This document shows positions 3,343-10,530 of a stretch of DNA of 41,299 nucleotides, one piece after another (within the stretch, counting starts at the first letter, position 1; each line of letters starts with the position of its first letter). Location: contig NZ_QJUG01000059.1 in assembly GCF_003426775.1 (NCBI RefSeq), positions 1-41,299 on the forward strand. The letters run 5' to 3'. The DNA is from Allorhizocola rhizosphaerae. Lineage in GTDB: Bacteria; Actinomycetota; Actinomycetes; Mycobacteriales; Micromonosporaceae. The translations under genes and the position numbers were made by a program. The notes beneath the pieces were generated by a model, which was not told the DNA's origin, ran no database searches, and worked only from the letters and a program-made list of their open reading frames with translations.

Positions 3343-4191
3343 TCATCCCTCGAGTACCCACTCGGGCGGCTCCCCGGCTGAGCCGTTACTCACCCGCTTT
3401 CGCCTGCGCAGCAACGGGCCGGCAAGCACCATCAGCACAAAAAGAGCGATCGCGGTGAGTACGACGGTCGCGCCGGTGCCCGTGTCGAGGCGCAGCGACA
3501 GGAAGAATCCACCCGCCCCGGCGCCGACCCCGCCCAGCATGGACAGCAGCATGGTGCCCGCGAAGCCGCGCGAGAGCTGCTGGGCCGCCGCGACCGGCAC
3601 GACCATGAGCGCGCTGACCAGCAGCAACCCGACCGCGCGCATCGCCACGGTCACGGTGACCGCCGCCATCACGGCGAGAAGCAGGTTGAGCAGGCGGACC
3701 GGAAGCCCCGAGACCTTGGCGTATTCCTCGTCCTGGCAGATCGCGAACAGCCACGGGCGCAGGCCGAGCGTCACGAGGAGCACTATCGCCCCGAGCACCG
3801 CCATGACGATCAGATCGTCCTCGGTCGTGGTCAGCGGGGAGCCGAACAGATATGCCATCAGGTTGGCGTTGGACTTGCCCGGGGCCAGCCCCACCAGGAA
3901 TACGCCGCCCGAAATCCCGCCGTAGAACAGGATCGCCAGCGCCATGTCGCCCGAGGTGCGGCCGCGGGAGCGGACGAGCTCGACCGCGATCGATCCCAGC
4001 GTGGCCACGATGACCGCCATGAGGACCGGTTGGGTGCTGGTCAGCAGGCCCAGGCCGACGCCGGTCAGCGCGATGTGCCCGATCCCGTCGCCGATCAGCG
4101 ACATGCGGCGCTGCACCAGATAGATCCCCAACGATGGAGCCACCAGCCCCGTGATCAGGACACCGAGCAGCGCCCGTTCAAAAAGATCCAT
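3343..4191 (-). CDS. znuB: Zinc ABC transporter permease
   Basis: A 282-residue ABC-3-type permease with about eight hydrophobic helices. It has the family N-terminus LVAPSLGIYLVQRRMSLIGDG and the conserved loop region near RPWLFAICQDEEYAKVSGL. It should form the membrane channel for zinc, or possibly manganese, together with the adjacent ATPase and binding protein. I place the start at ATG 4191, two bases after the ATPase stop; the frame extends to a TTG at 4209, which would overlap the ATPase gene and has a badly spaced ribosome site. A charged tail (LLRRRKRVSNGSAGE) ends the protein. Metal choice is inferred from the neighbours rather than from the permease itself. Confidence 0.9.
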   Translation of the reverse strand: MDLFERALLGVLITGLVAPSLGIYLVQRRMSLIGDGIGHIALTGVGLGLLTSTQPVLMAVIVATLGSIAVELVRSRGRTSGDMALAILFYGGISGGVFLVGLAPGKSNANLMAYLFGSPLTTTEDDLIVMAVLGAIVLLVTLGLRPWLFAICQDEEYAKVSGLPVRLLNLLLAVMAAVTVTVAMRAVGLLLVSALMVVPVAAAQQLSRGFAGTMLLSMLGGVGAGAGGFFLSLRLDTGTGATVVLTAIALFVLMVLAGPLLRRRKRVSNGSAGEPPEWVLEG

Positions 4192-4193
4192 TT

Positions 4194-4955
4194 CTATCTG
4201 GTACCCCAAAAGCCTTCGCCGTGGTCGGGAGCGTGTGGATGAACATGATCATGGTCGGGATCGGCGTGGTGCCCGGCCGGCTCGGGGACGGGCCCGTCAT
4301 GGGCGATCACGCCATCGTGCACGACCACGGCGCGGGTCACGACCGGGCGCAGCGGGCCGAGCTCGTGCGCGACCAGGACCACCGTCCCGCCACCATCGAC
4401 GAACACGCGCAGCGCGTGGGCGAACGCCTCCTGCGAGGCGGCGTCCACCCCCGCCGTCGGCTCGTCGAGCACGAGCAGATCGGGCTCGCCCGCGAGGGCC
4501 CGCGCGATGAGCGTGCGCTGCTGCTGCCCACCGGAAAGGGTCGCGACCGGGTCCTTGGCCCGCGAGCCCAGGCCCACCATGGCGATGGCGTCGTGCACGG
4601 CCTTGCGGTCGCGCGCGCCCGGCGGGCGCAGGAAGCCGCGCTTGCCCAGCCGGCCGGCCGCCACCACCTCGCGCACGGTCGCCGGAACCCCACTGCCCGC
4701 GCCCATCCGCTGAGGCACATAGCCGATCCGCCGCCACTGGCGGAAGCGCCGCAATGGTGTCTCGAACAGCTCCACCGAACCGTCGCTGAGCGGCACGAGC
4801 CCGAGTGCGGCACGGATCAGGGTCGACTTGCCGCTGCCGTTGGCGCCCAGGATGGCGAGCACGTCTCCGGTGTGGACGATCAGGCTCAGGTCGCGCAACA
4901 CGGGGCGGCCGCTGAACGCGACCGCCCCATGCTCAATCCGAAGGACCGATGTCAT
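4194..4955 (-). CDS. znuC: Zinc ABC transporter ATPase with His-rich tail
   Basis: A 253-residue ABC ATPase: Walker A GANGSGKS at 37-44, Q-loop YVPQ near 79-82, signature LSGGQ at 140-144, Walker B LLVLDEP at 160-166 and a switch His in VAHEL near 197. The C-terminus (about 229-245) holds seven histidines interleaved with Asp (GHHADPDHDHVHPH), a probable zinc-binding tail not needed for ATPase function. The gene overlaps the binding-protein gene by four bases (ATGA at 4952-4955) and stops two bases before the permease start, so the three are translationally linked. A longer frame upstream is only the shadow of the binding-protein gene. Confidence 0.92.
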   Translation of the reverse strand: MTSVLRIEHGAVAFSGRPVLRDLSLIVHTGDVLAILGANGSGKSTLIRAALGLVPLSDGSVELFETPLRRFRQWRRIGYVPQRMGAGSGVPATVREVVAAGRLGKRGFLRPPGARDRKAVHDAIAMVGLGSRAKDPVATLSGGQQQRTLIARALAGEPDLLVLDEPTAGVDAASQEAFAHALRVFVDGGGTVVLVAHELGPLRPVVTRAVVVHDGVIAHDGPVPEPAGHHADPDHDHVHPHAPDHGEGFWGTR

Positions 4956-5875
4956 GCACAACCTAACGCTTCGCGCAGGGTTTTCAGATTGGCCCGCATG
5001 ACCGAAAAGTAGTCGTCGGTGCTGCCCGCCGCCAAACCCTCCAGCGGGTCGAGCACGGCGGTCTTCGCCCCGACCTCCTTGGCCAGGGCCTCGGCCACCT
5101 TCGGTGAGACCAGCGTCTCGAAGAAGATGGTCTTCGCGTCGTGCTCCTTGGCCTCCTCGGCGACCTCGGCCAGGCGCTGCGGCGTCGGTTCGGCCTCGGG
5201 GTCGAGCCCGGTGATGCCGATCTGCTCCAGGTCGTAGCGCTTGGCCAGGTAGCCGAAGGCGGCGTGGCTGGTCACGATCTCGCGGCGCTCGCACGTCTTG
5301 AGCCCGGCGGTGAACTCACCGTCCAGTTTGGTCAATTCGGCCTTGAGCGCTTGCGCGTTGGCCGTGTAGTCGGCCGCGTAGGTCGCGTCGGCCTTGCCCA
5401 GCTGGCTCGCGACCGCCTCGGCGATCGTGGCCAGGCGGGTCGGGTCGAGCCACACGTGCGGGTCGAGCTCCTCGTCCTGCTTCGCGTCGGGCGCGGGGGA
5501 CGGCTCTGTCTCGTGCTCGTGCGCCTCGCCCTTCTCCAGCGGTGTCACGGTCGTCACGTCGAACGACTTCGCGGCCGCGTTTTGCTCGACGGCCTTGTCG
5601 AGCTCGGGCTGGAACCCCTTAAGGTAGATCACCAGGTCGGCCCCTGCCACCTGAGTGATCTGTGAGGGCTTGAGCTCCAGGTCGTGTGGCTCGGCGCCCG
5701 GCTGGGCAAGGTTGGTGACCTGCACATGGTCGCCGCCGACCCGCTGGGCGACGAACTGCAGCGGATAGAAGCCCGCCACCACGTCAACCTTGCCCGGCAC
5801 AGCGGGCTCGGTCCCCCCGCCGCACGCGGCAAGGGTGGTCAGCGCGGCAGCGGCGATGAGAATGCGGCTCAACAT
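4952..5875 (-). CDS. znuA: Zinc ABC transporter substrate-binding lipoprotein
   Basis: A 307-residue cluster A-I (TroA/ZnuA) binding protein. It starts with a lipoprotein signal ending in LAAC (Cys18). The expected metal ligands are visible: His64 in EPHDLEL, His140 in DPHVWLDP, His204 in TSHAAFGYL and an Asp near the C-terminus in AVLDPLEG. Between the first two ligands lies an acidic, His-bearing loop (about 115-138, EAHEHETEPSP), typical of zinc rather than manganese binders. ATG 5875 is preferred because GGAGG lies just upstream; an upstream ATG at 5911 would put the Zur-like box inside the gene. It is the first gene of the operon znuA-znuC-znuB-arsR. Confidence 0.92.
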   Translation of the reverse strand: MLSRILIAAAALTTLAACGGGTEPAVPGKVDVVAGFYPLQFVAQRVGGDHVQVTNLAQPGAEPHDLELKPSQITQVAGADLVIYLKGFQPELDKAVEQNAAAKSFDVTTVTPLEKGEAHEHETEPSPAPDAKQDEELDPHVWLDPTRLATIAEAVASQLGKADATYAADYTANAQALKAELTKLDGEFTAGLKTCERREIVTSHAAFGYLAKRYDLEQIGITGLDPEAEPTPQRLAEVAEEAKEHDAKTIFFETLVSPKVAEALAKEVGAKTAVLDPLEGLAAGSTDDYFSVMRANLKTLREALGCA

Positions 5876-5895
5876 GACCTCCACTCTCCCCAAAA

Positions 5896-5910
5896 TGAGA
5901 ATGATTGTCA
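5896..5910. promoter_or_regulatory. Zur-like operator of the zinc operon
   Basis: TGAGAATGATTGTCA is a 7-1-7 inverted repeat with one mismatch, matching the AT-rich core typical of actinobacterial Zur/Fur-type boxes. It lies 21 bases upstream of the znuA ATG and overlaps a TTGACA -35-like hexamer on the minus strand, so zinc-loaded Zur would block transcription. No Zur (Fur family) gene lies in this window. Confidence 0.7.
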
Positions 5911-5930
5911 AAACCGCATGGGTCCATGTC

Positions 5931-9207: not shown

Positions 9208-9699
9208 GTGGACATGGCGAAGAACCGAACAGTAGCCGGTGCCGGAACCCTCGCCACCGCTGCGCTCGTCCTGCTCTTTGGCAACCAGCCAATGACCGAG
9301 TGGGTGGGCAACCATGCCACCAATCCCGACAGCGCATGGGATTGGTTTCTTCGGACACTGACGTGGCCGCGCTGGGCCGTCGGGCCGACCGACGGCGGCG
9401 GCGACGCCATGCGTCGGTTGCTCGCAGACGACCTGCGGGCGATCCTGCTGGTCGCATTCGTGGCGATCATCCTCGCGGTGGTCGCCAAGACGGTTTCGGG
9501 GGGCGTCGGCGGCTTCTTCCTGGGTTGGTCGGCAGTCGTGTTCGGGTCGGCCCTCGCGGCCTTCCTCACGGCGTTCATCGTGTCCAACCCGTCCATCCTC
9601 AACGCATTCCAGGTGGCGGCGGCGGGATCGGCCTACGGGCTGTTCGTCGGCTGGATCGTTGGTGCTGTCACGGCCGGTGCCAAGGGCACCGGATCCTAG
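9208..9699 (+). CDS. Hypothetical membrane protein
   Basis: A 163-residue protein with about four hydrophobic helices (roughly residues 9-24, 77-92, 98-118 and 137-156), and an aromatic soluble segment between the first and second (WDWFLRTLTWPRWAVGPTD). No family is recognised. The start is GTG 9208 or the in-frame ATG 9214; TAGGGT at 9193-9198 may be the -10. The stop overlaps that of the convergent Clp-N gene in a shared CTAG (9696-9699). Confidence 0.7.
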   Translation: MDMAKNRTVAGAGTLATAALVLLFGNQPMTEWVGNHATNPDSAWDWFLRTLTWPRWAVGPTDGGGDAMRRLLADDLRAILLVAFVAIILAVVAKTVSGGVGGFFLGWSAVVFGSALAAFLTAFIVSNPSILNAFQVAAAGSAYGLFVGWIVGAVTAGAKGTGS

Positions 9700-10262
9700 T
9701 TCTCCTTGTGCGCCTTGGGAATCGCGGCGATCGTCTTGGCCCGCAGGTCGGCGAAGTCGAGGCCCGCATCGGCAAGCAGCTTCGCCGCGAGTCCCTTGCC
9801 CTCGCGCAGCAGGCCGAGCAGGATGTGCTCGGTGCCGATGTGTTTGTGCTTGAGCGCGAGGGCCTCGCGCAGCGACAGCTCGAGCACCACCTTTGCCCTC
9901 GGGGTGAACCGGCCACCGAGGTAGCGCTTGCGTAGCAGGCCGTGCCGCTCCTCGTGCGGGACATCCTCATCCAGCGCTCCCGGGCCGAACGTCTCCTCTA
10001 TCTTGGCGCGCACCACGTTCAGGTCGATGCCGATGGACTCCAGCGCGTGAGCGTCCAATGTGGGCGGACAGGCGACCGCGGCCCGGATCTTTTGCGCGTC
10101 AAGCCCTTGCGCCCGCAGCACGTCGTGTGCGATGCCGCCGCCCAGGGCCAGGATCGCCAGCAGGAGGTGCTCGGTGCCCACGTGCTTGTGGCCCATCTCG
10201 TTGGCCAGATCCTGTGCTCCCTTGACGACGAGCCGTGACCTGTCGGTGAACCGTTCGAACAT
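9696..10262 (-). CDS. Stand-alone Clp N-domain protein
   Basis: A 188-residue protein made of two Clp_N repeats, the module found at the N-terminus of ClpA/ClpC, but with no AAA+ ATPase domain. The repeats are visible as HKHVGTEHLLLAIL (about 26-39) and HKHIGTEHILLGLL (139-152), separated by a linker with DEDVPHEERHGLL. Such proteins can bind substrates or adaptors without unfolding them. Its ATG at 10262 shares one base with the TAA of the upstream HTH gene, so translation is coupled. Coupling and the autoregulatory-looking promoter suggest that the Clp-N protein modulates, or is delivered with, the small repressor. A competitor or anti-adaptor for ClpC is another possibility. Confidence 0.9.
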   Translation of the reverse strand: MFERFTDRSRLVVKGAQDLANEMGHKHVGTEHLLLAILALGGGIAHDVLRAQGLDAQKIRAAVACPPTLDAHALESIGIDLNVVRAKIEETFGPGALDEDVPHEERHGLLRKRYLGGRFTPRAKVVLELSLREALALKHKHIGTEHILLGLLREGKGLAAKLLADAGLDFADLRAKTIAAIPKAHKEN

Positions 10263-10483
10263 TATCTGTCCCCTCGCCCCCGGGCGTGCTTCTTGTGCAC
10301 GGCCTGCTTGCTGACCTGAAGCGCGTCGGCGATCTCCTGCCACGACCAGCCGAGCTCGCGCGCGTGCCGCACCTGAAGCGCCTCAAGCTTTTCGAGCAGG
10401 TTGCGCAGGGCCACCACTGCCCGCAGCCCGATCTTGGGATCGGCGCTTCCGGCCGCGGTGGCGAGATCCTTCGCTTCGCTCAT
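10262..10483 (-). CDS. Small helix-turn-helix regulator
   Basis: A 73-residue protein: an N-terminal helix with LRAVVALRNLLEKLEALQVRHA and a C-terminal helix-turn-helix, GWSWQEIADALQVSKQAVHKKH (about residues 45-66), ending in a basic tail. It is all DNA-binding and dimerisation with no sensor domain, so a signal probably comes from the coupled Clp-N protein. The start is ATG 10483, seven bases after a TATGTT -10; earlier ATG and TTG codons lie inside the operator/promoter. Two perfect palindromes covering the -35 and -10 argue for autorepression. Confidence 0.82.
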   Translation of the reverse strand: MSEAKDLATAAGSADPKIGLRAVVALRNLLEKLEALQVRHARELGWSWQEIADALQVSKQAVHKKHARGRGDR

Positions 10484-10487
10484 GCTT

Positions 10488-10530
10488 GTCAACATACGTT
10501 GACGAGACGAGTTTGTCAACTTGCGTTGAC
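10488..10530 (-). promoter_or_regulatory. Promoter with two palindromic operators (GTCAAC-N4-GTTGAC)
   Basis: Two perfect inverted repeats of the form GTCAAC-N4-GTTGAC lie at 10488-10503 and 10515-10530, with centres 27 bases apart. On the minus strand the distal copy overlaps TTGACA (10514-10519) and the proximal copy overlaps TATGTT (10491-10496); the two hexamers are exactly 17 bases apart. This is a near-consensus promoter with each element inside an operator, reading into the HTH/Clp-N pair as a leaderless message starting at 10483. Confidence 0.8.

Follow-up and report, generated by a model that had tools for sequence, protein, structure and literature searches.

The stretch of DNA analyzed here, 41,299 nucleotides of Allorhizocola rhizosphaerae that we refer to as the window, carries on its minus strand two small ORFs that share a single base. 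The first (10262..10483, with its ATG at 10483..10481 and its end at 10262) encodes a 73-amino acid protein predicted to bind DNA through a helix-turn-helix (HTH), and the second (9696..10262) encodes a 188-amino acid stand-alone Clp-N protein with two Clp repeats, base 10262 being the last of the HTH ORF and the first of the Clp-N ORF. This organization agrees with a sequence-only reading of the locus, and Pfam assigns HTH_23 and Clp_N to the two products. Upstream of the HTH gene, the window sequence contains two perfect palindromes of the form GTCAAC-N4-GTTGAC (N4 sites), a proximal one at 10488-10503 (GTCAACATACGTTGAC) and a distal one at 10515-10530 (GTCAACTTGCGTTGAC), both of them exact as that reading had claimed. 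The minus strand accordingly runs from the distal operator GTCAACGCAAGTTGAC over 11 bases to the proximal operator GTCAACGTATGTTGAC and, after another 4 bases, to the ATG. The locus had been placed at 10484-10530, a start that is one base off given that the HTH ATG occupies 10483..10481, with four bases between it and the operator.

Each operator coincides with one promoter element of the HTH gene, as had been proposed. On the minus strand, the -35 element TTGACA (10519..10514) lies inside the distal operator plus one base, while the center and right half of the proximal operator form the -10 element TATGTT (10496..10491). The distance of 17 bases that had been given for the operators is correct for the two promoter hexamers but not for the palindromes, which start 27 bp apart and leave a gap of 11 bp. 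From the position of the -10 element relative to the ATG, transcription is predicted to start on the minus strand at the ATG or one base before it (10481..10484).

Chance palindromes were ruled out by the expectation from base composition, a control with the pattern read backwards, a scan of 150 genomes, and the presence of the sites in 80/80 relatives (the best 80 of 558). The window contains 2 perfect N4 sites where 0.001 would be expected from its base composition, and a search of the 8.8-Mb genome, which the sequence-only reading had suggested, found 5 where 0.23 would be expected from the window's base composition, 4 of them forming two pairs. With up to one mismatch, the genome has 12 N4 sites compared to 2 for the backward pattern. 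When 3 mismatches are allowed, the window shows no excess of N4 sites (10 seen versus 16.06 expected), and the signal thus resides in the perfect sites. Among 150 genomes of the order, 34 contain the paired N4 pattern and none contains its backward version. A large regulon of perfect sites was not seen in the window's own genome (493 contigs, 96.66% complete), where the 5 perfect N4 sites comprise, beyond the window pair, only a lone site at an ORF end on contig C463 and one pair of promoter-like layout in front of a DUF998 gene. This second perfect pair (C37:21204-21248; L005 5205-5249; N4 site L026) has its sites 29 bases apart and lies 2 bases before the ATG of a 152-amino acid ORF, which is perhaps truncated because the DUF998 match in Pfam (2e-28) covers only profile positions 2-106 of 184. 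It is possible that the DUF998 gene is a further target of the HTH protein.

Relatives of the pair were fetched by protein with a profile of 21 HTH proteins, and those analyzed further, with organism names, are the best 80 of 558. The 21 proteins came from paired-operator loci, so that the motif entered the building of the profile but not the search itself, and the named relatives, as the best 80 of 558, lean towards close relatives; they include Streptomyces, Actinoplanes, Prauserella, Saccharothrix, Sphaerisporangium, a Nitriliruptorales bin, and others. In all 80, the 120 bases ahead of the ATG contain exactly two N4 sites (at most 2/12 mismatches), whose first bases lie at -46 to -48 and at -18 to -20, within two bases of the window positions. 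The same upstream scan with other spacers gave 0/80 for N2, N3, N5, and N6 and 5/80 for N7. A Clp-N gene follows directly downstream on the same strand in 80/80 of these best 80 of 558 (profile search), and the overlap between the HTH stop and the MF start of the Clp-N protein is one base in 64 of them, so that both the pair and its motif are conserved in related genomes, as the sequence-only reading implied. Across 81 upstream regions (the window plus the best 80 of 558), the -35 hexamer is TTGACA or TTGACG in 78, the hexamer spacing derived from operator positions is 17 bp in 59 and 18 bp in 22, the gap between proximal operator and ATG is 2-4 bases, and spacer positions 2-3 are TA in 79 proximal operators and in 1 distal one. 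The TA in the proximal operators, the hexamer spacing, and the short gap to the ATG indicate that the proximal operator is the -10 box and that the mRNA probably starts at the ATG; judged from these sequence features, the HTH/Clp-N mRNA is probably leaderless.

This layout recalls mycobacterial ClpC2 (Rv2667 and its M. smegmatis homologue), a single chain of an N-terminal domain and a Clp-N part that represses its own gene (Taylor et al. 2023, PMC10030653). As described there, its operators have the form CGTCAAC-n5-GTTGACG and lie one or two bases before the ORF, many organisms have a second upstream operator so that both together cover the -35 and -10 elements, and the mRNA was judged to be leaderless (PMC10030653). 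Cyclomarin A binds to the Clp-N part of ClpC2 and weakens DNA binding, which lifts repression, and the induced ClpC2 soaks up cyclomarin and protects the cell (PMC10030653). According to PMC12913811, an ecumicin analogue and an ilamycin bind ClpC2 of M. tuberculosis without inducing it, and conservation of the pocket therefore does not give the ligand.

For the HTH protein, Pfam matches HTH_23 (6.1e-06, above cut-off) and also Sigma70_r4_2, general HTH families only, and no NCBIfam model reaches its cut-off. The AlphaFold model (mean pLDDT 90.7) has helices at residues 2-11, 16-43, 48-55, and 59-70, of which the last is the predicted recognition helix, and the protein was aligned with 20 relatives. 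Structural comparisons point to generic HTH resemblance, with no PDB match at E 0.001 in Foldseek and a best Z of 5.0 (Fis) in VIA-align, and 8ADA, a crystal fragment of ClpC2, was absent from the matches shown in either case. A single-sequence search of the PDB gave only two mitoribosomal chance matches (E 0.36 and 0.81), with 8ADA unlisted up to E 1. The HTH profile matches 8ADA weakly (E 0.011), and its best solved match is the antitoxin RelI (9sdc, E 1.1e-4). When the split HTHs were aligned to the N-terminal regions of 12 fused relatives, hhalign returned a probability of 97.0 and an E of 7.9e-11 over 50 columns spanning the entire HTH. In our own mapping, the D46-R57 salt bridge of the ClpC2 dimer corresponds to E31 (at least 90%) and R42 (invariant, 21/21) of the HTH protein. 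By sequence, the HTH protein thus appears homologous to the N-terminal region of ClpC2 via the fused relatives, the direct match to 8ADA being weak. In a tree of HTH regions (69 rows, 79 columns, quick method), a branch with support 100 separates the fused from the split proteins. The program flagged long branches and a small number of columns, however, and we therefore did not use this tree to root split or fusion.

The Clp-N protein matches Pfam Clp_N in two stretches (8.1e-30), and its AlphaFold model (mean pLDDT 87.1) retrieves N-terminal domains of ClpC1 as top Foldseek matches (8ibp, E 6.9e-11). It has the same fold as the ClpC1 N-terminal domain, from which it differs in being stand-alone without AAA+ modules and in an extra helical hairpin between the Clp repeats. 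Conservation was counted over 103 split Clp-N proteins, a set that leaves out L106, L108, and L123 (ORFs of at least 240 amino acids) as well as L015. The ligand-contact phenylalanines of ClpC2, F96 and F172, correspond to F2 and F119 in the window protein, which are kept in 101/103 and 96/103 split proteins, but many of the relatives have drifted at other positions, such as E31 (E in 70/103) and E128 (74/103). The extra hairpin (about residues 66-95, core ALESIGIDLNVVRAKIEETFGPGA; 9978..10067, minus strand), apparent from alignments and the model, is predicted by AlphaFold to form helices 69-76 and 81-92 (block confidence 72-87), and its residues A73, L74, G78, D80, E89, and G93 are kept in 100-103 of the 103 proteins. 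It was not seen in 9 aligned fused ClpC2-type proteins nor in the genome's own ClpC, in which about 25 of the alignment positions here are missing. Since the hairpin is more constant across split Clp-N proteins than some pocket positions, we propose it, as a guess, as a candidate dock for the HTH protein. The Clp-N domain is the part of ClpC on which adaptors dock, and its fold is not that of adaptors like MecA or ClpS. No adaptor family of the MecA or ClpS type appeared for the window protein, with Pfam up to E 0.1 giving Clp_N and a DUF3572 match below cut-off and the best Foldseek rows being ClpC N-domains. Similarly, no toxin domain was found, with Pfam giving Clp_N and NCBIfam giving nothing at cut-off and listing Clp ATPases and a secretion chaperone.

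The window pair therefore shares with ClpC2 the half-sites GTCAAC/GTTGAC, two operators over the -35 and -10 elements of a promoter with a leaderless start (predicted here from position), an HTH-type N-terminal region, a Clp-N part with two pocket phenylalanines, and an autoregulated layout. Unlike the one-gene ClpC2 with its CGTCAAC-n5-GTTGACG (N5) operators, it consists of two ORFs with an N4 spacer (in the window and in 80/80 of the best 80 of 558), a shorter HTH protein, and the conserved hairpin between the Clp repeats. Another small HTH protein related to the N-terminal region of ClpC2 and paired with a partner gene is the RelI antitoxin (Rv2664), which HHpred finds similar to ClpC2 within the HTH region and of which at least some homologues were proposed by the authors of that study to derive from ClpC2; its partner, unlike that of the window pair, is an RNase toxin without Clp-N, and the main text of that paper does not use the terms "operator" or "palindrom" (PMC13284704). 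We found no description of a split HTH/Clp-N pair in the published papers that were searched. Our preferred reading of the pair is a two-gene variant of mycobacterial ClpC2 that is widespread among the actinobacteria searched.

The genome of the window also encodes a fused ClpC2-type protein elsewhere (229 amino acids, contig C172), which has two N5 operators with the nearer one 3 bases before the ATG. Paired N5 sites occur in 61/150 genomes of the order, paired N4 sites in 34/150, and both in 24/150 by our own row count; paired N6 sites occur in 0/150 and paired N3 sites in 1/150, and the backward control gave 0 in each of these paired N3, N4, N5, and N6 searches. The sole N3 match is a tandem GTCAAC-N3-GTTGAC array (G114:C27:9938-10021) in a 78%-complete genome. 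All 30 paired N5 loci examined, out of 64 places of which 34 were left out, start a fused protein of 213-259 amino acids. Together with the adjacency of the two genes in 80/80 of the best 80 of 558, this bears out the earlier claim that HTH and Clp-N belong together. By comparison, 57 of 59 paired N4 loci examined start a separate HTH gene of this family. These 59 are the window, 30 loci from the search of the order (including the second site of the same genome), and 28 new loci from a search of 296 genomes of the class; 6/37 places from the order search (in G026, G027, G118, G125, and G138) and 10/41 from the class search were left out, and genomes common to both searches (G000 and G014 among the matches) were counted once. 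The two exceptions are the DUF998 site (L026) and L038, where paired perfect N4 operators (1501-1544) stand without a family HTH and an ORF that by eye resembles alpha/beta-hydrolases starts 18 bases away.

The partner of the 57 HTH genes is Clp-N in 48 cases, a serine hydrolase in 5, and ABC transporter-like in 1, with no partner seen in 2 (L172 and L174, with paired N4 operators and HTH) and a contig end cutting the remaining locus (L163). Clp-N was identified by profile search in L015, L020, L035, L037, L175, and L176, which a rule based on the start motif had missed (L015 and L176 also by Pfam), and in L167 it starts 3 bases after the HTH stop and had escaped the adjacency rule of the profile search. 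In the serine hydrolase loci (L027, L028, L164, L165, and L166), the HTH ORF overlaps the hydrolase ORF by about 4 bases; the partner in L027 matches Pfam Beta-lactamase (1.5e-36), and the other four were named by sequence likeness, with no Pfam match for a 60-residue piece in L164. In L156, three N4 operators are followed, about 45 bases past the last of them, by a family HTH and then by an ORF that is ABC transporter-like by sequence likeness. The distribution of spacers suggests that the N4 spacing keeps the split repressor apart from fused ClpC2 (N5) in the same cell. However, 10/34 genomes with paired N4 sites have no paired N5 sites, and insulation can therefore not be the sole reason for the N4 spacer.

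These loci also bear on which half of the repressor reads DNA. Taylor et al. 2023 place the DNA binding of ClpC2 in its Clp-N half, where R185A/R189A weakens it, and treat the N-terminal part as a dimerization domain through which dimer formation matters, with "helix-turn-helix" and "HTH" absent from the main text (PMC10030653). On the basis of these mutants, Clp-N may touch DNA too. The equivalent of R185 (R132) is kept in 95/103 split Clp-N proteins and also present in the genome's own ClpC, and the equivalent of R189 (position 136) is R in only 20/103. The two ClpC2 crystals cover residues 4-72 (8ADA, with the chain ending at V72) and 94-252 (8AD9), and in fused relatives the stretch after that valine is [ST]KQAAQKR, aligned with residues 59-70 of the window HTH, its predicted recognition helix. 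Because the crystals stop at 72 and restart at 94, the predicted recognition helix (stretch 73-93) would be in neither of them. Furthermore, N4 operators also precede HTHs with non-Clp partners, which means that the operator follows the HTH and not Clp-N. An operator that travels with the HTH, as seen in these sequence comparisons, disagrees with the published placing of the ClpC2 DNA contacts in the Clp-N half and argues for the HTH as the putative DNA reader with Clp-N in a modulating role. The results of Taylor et al. with the mutants remain valid and can be reconciled with Clp-N playing a supporting role.

We consider it probable, from sequence and by analogy, that the pair represents a split form related to ClpC2, that is, an autorepressor of two proteins with Clp-N as ligand sensor and sponge. 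The operator layout strongly suggests that an HTH dimer would bind the two N4 operators, cover the -35 and -10 elements, and thereby shut its own leaderless promoter. Clp-N, made in step with the HTH protein, would bind to it, as gene coupling and the fused homologue suggest, with the hairpin as a guessed docking site. As in fused ClpC2, a ligand that fills the ClpC-like pocket of Clp-N would make the complex leave the DNA and induce the operon, and surplus Clp-N would soak up the ligand and shield ClpC. Candidate ligands would be those that otherwise act on ClpC, such as a ClpC-targeting peptide antibiotic or a flood of unfolded or marked clients, and the one-base-shorter operator would insulate the split repressor from fused ClpC2 (N5). 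The sequence-only reading had called the HTH protein a sensorless repressor, which is probably wrong because its partner Clp-N is probably the sensor: the Clp-N half is where cyclomarin A binds in the fused relative (PMC10030653), and the pocket phenylalanines are kept. The partnership of the two proteins and their link to the Clp system hold up.

That reading had linked the pair to proteolysis or Clp availability, with Clp-N as a delivery module that tethers the HTH repressor to ClpC so that the level of repression would depend on ClpCP proteolysis or on how occupied ClpC is. The tight gene coupling with its one-base overlap in 64/80 (best 80 of 558) and the Clp-N fold that links the pair to the Clp system would fit such a role, but a Clp-N domain receives adaptors and does not itself have an adaptor fold, and nothing in our analysis points to presentation of the repressor to ClpC. 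The route known from fused ClpC2 is, furthermore, a ligand-weakened DNA binding (PMC10030653). A delivery function thus seems unlikely to us, and we regard Clp-N as ligand sensor and sponge as likelier than the idea of proteolysis. Given that the HTH/operator unit also occurs with other partners and alone, the HTH protein could instead be a stand-alone homeostatic repressor and Clp-N a passenger, co-regulated as decoy or holdase outside of DNA binding and sensing. We find this rather improbable, since Clp-N is the partner at 48/57 paired N4 HTH loci and at 80/80 named ones (best 80 of 558), and since the fused homologue joins both parts and its Clp-N ligand alters DNA binding (PMC10030653). 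A toxin-antitoxin-like module, with the HTH protein as antitoxin and free Clp-N poisoning or deregulating ClpC, is brought to mind by the solved structure that the HTH profile matches best, the RelI antitoxin (9sdc, E 1.1e-4) with its possible kinship to ClpC2 (PMC13284704), but is highly improbable given that the partner has no toxin family in Pfam or NCBIfam and that induced ClpC2 protects instead of harming (PMC10030653).

Beyond the reading of the pair as a two-protein autorepressor with a sensing Clp-N, we tentatively put forward a broader one that we would not call likely. Actinobacteria may possess a common chassis of small autorepressors, composed of one HTH and two GTCAAC-N4/5-GTTGAC operators in a leaderless promoter, to which interchangeable partners are attached that copy a drug target or handle a drug. 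Clp-N would be a ClpC decoy, the serine hydrolase of beta-lactamase fold might act as a decoy for cell-wall drugs or degrade them, and the ABC transporter would be a third such partner, with the partner in each case acting as sensor and sponge. A one-base change in spacing would insulate paralogues, and ClpC2 itself would read DNA via its N-terminal HTH.

Cyclomarin, ecumicin, rufomycin, and lassomycin all target ClpC, and cells are known to answer cyclomarin with ClpC2. The split form found in Streptomyces, Actinoplanes, Prauserella, and others (best 80 of 558) separates the DNA-reading from the ligand-reading part, so that the question of the DNA-binding half of ClpC2 becomes answerable with two small proteins. 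The genera carrying the split pair make many natural products, and the promoters of split pairs may report ClpC-directed antibiotics in these genera. A genome with both N4 and N5 operators may also offer a clear natural example of paralogous repressors that are kept apart by a single base of spacing. Elsewhere in the genome of the window, a 946-amino acid open frame (L008; C238:3828-4337) matches Clp-N residues 1-178 at 42% and is perhaps a second, divergent Clp ATPase-like gene. Within the window itself, ORFs on the minus strand at 3343-5911 resemble by eye the permease, ATPase, and binding protein of a metal (zinc-type) ABC transporter.
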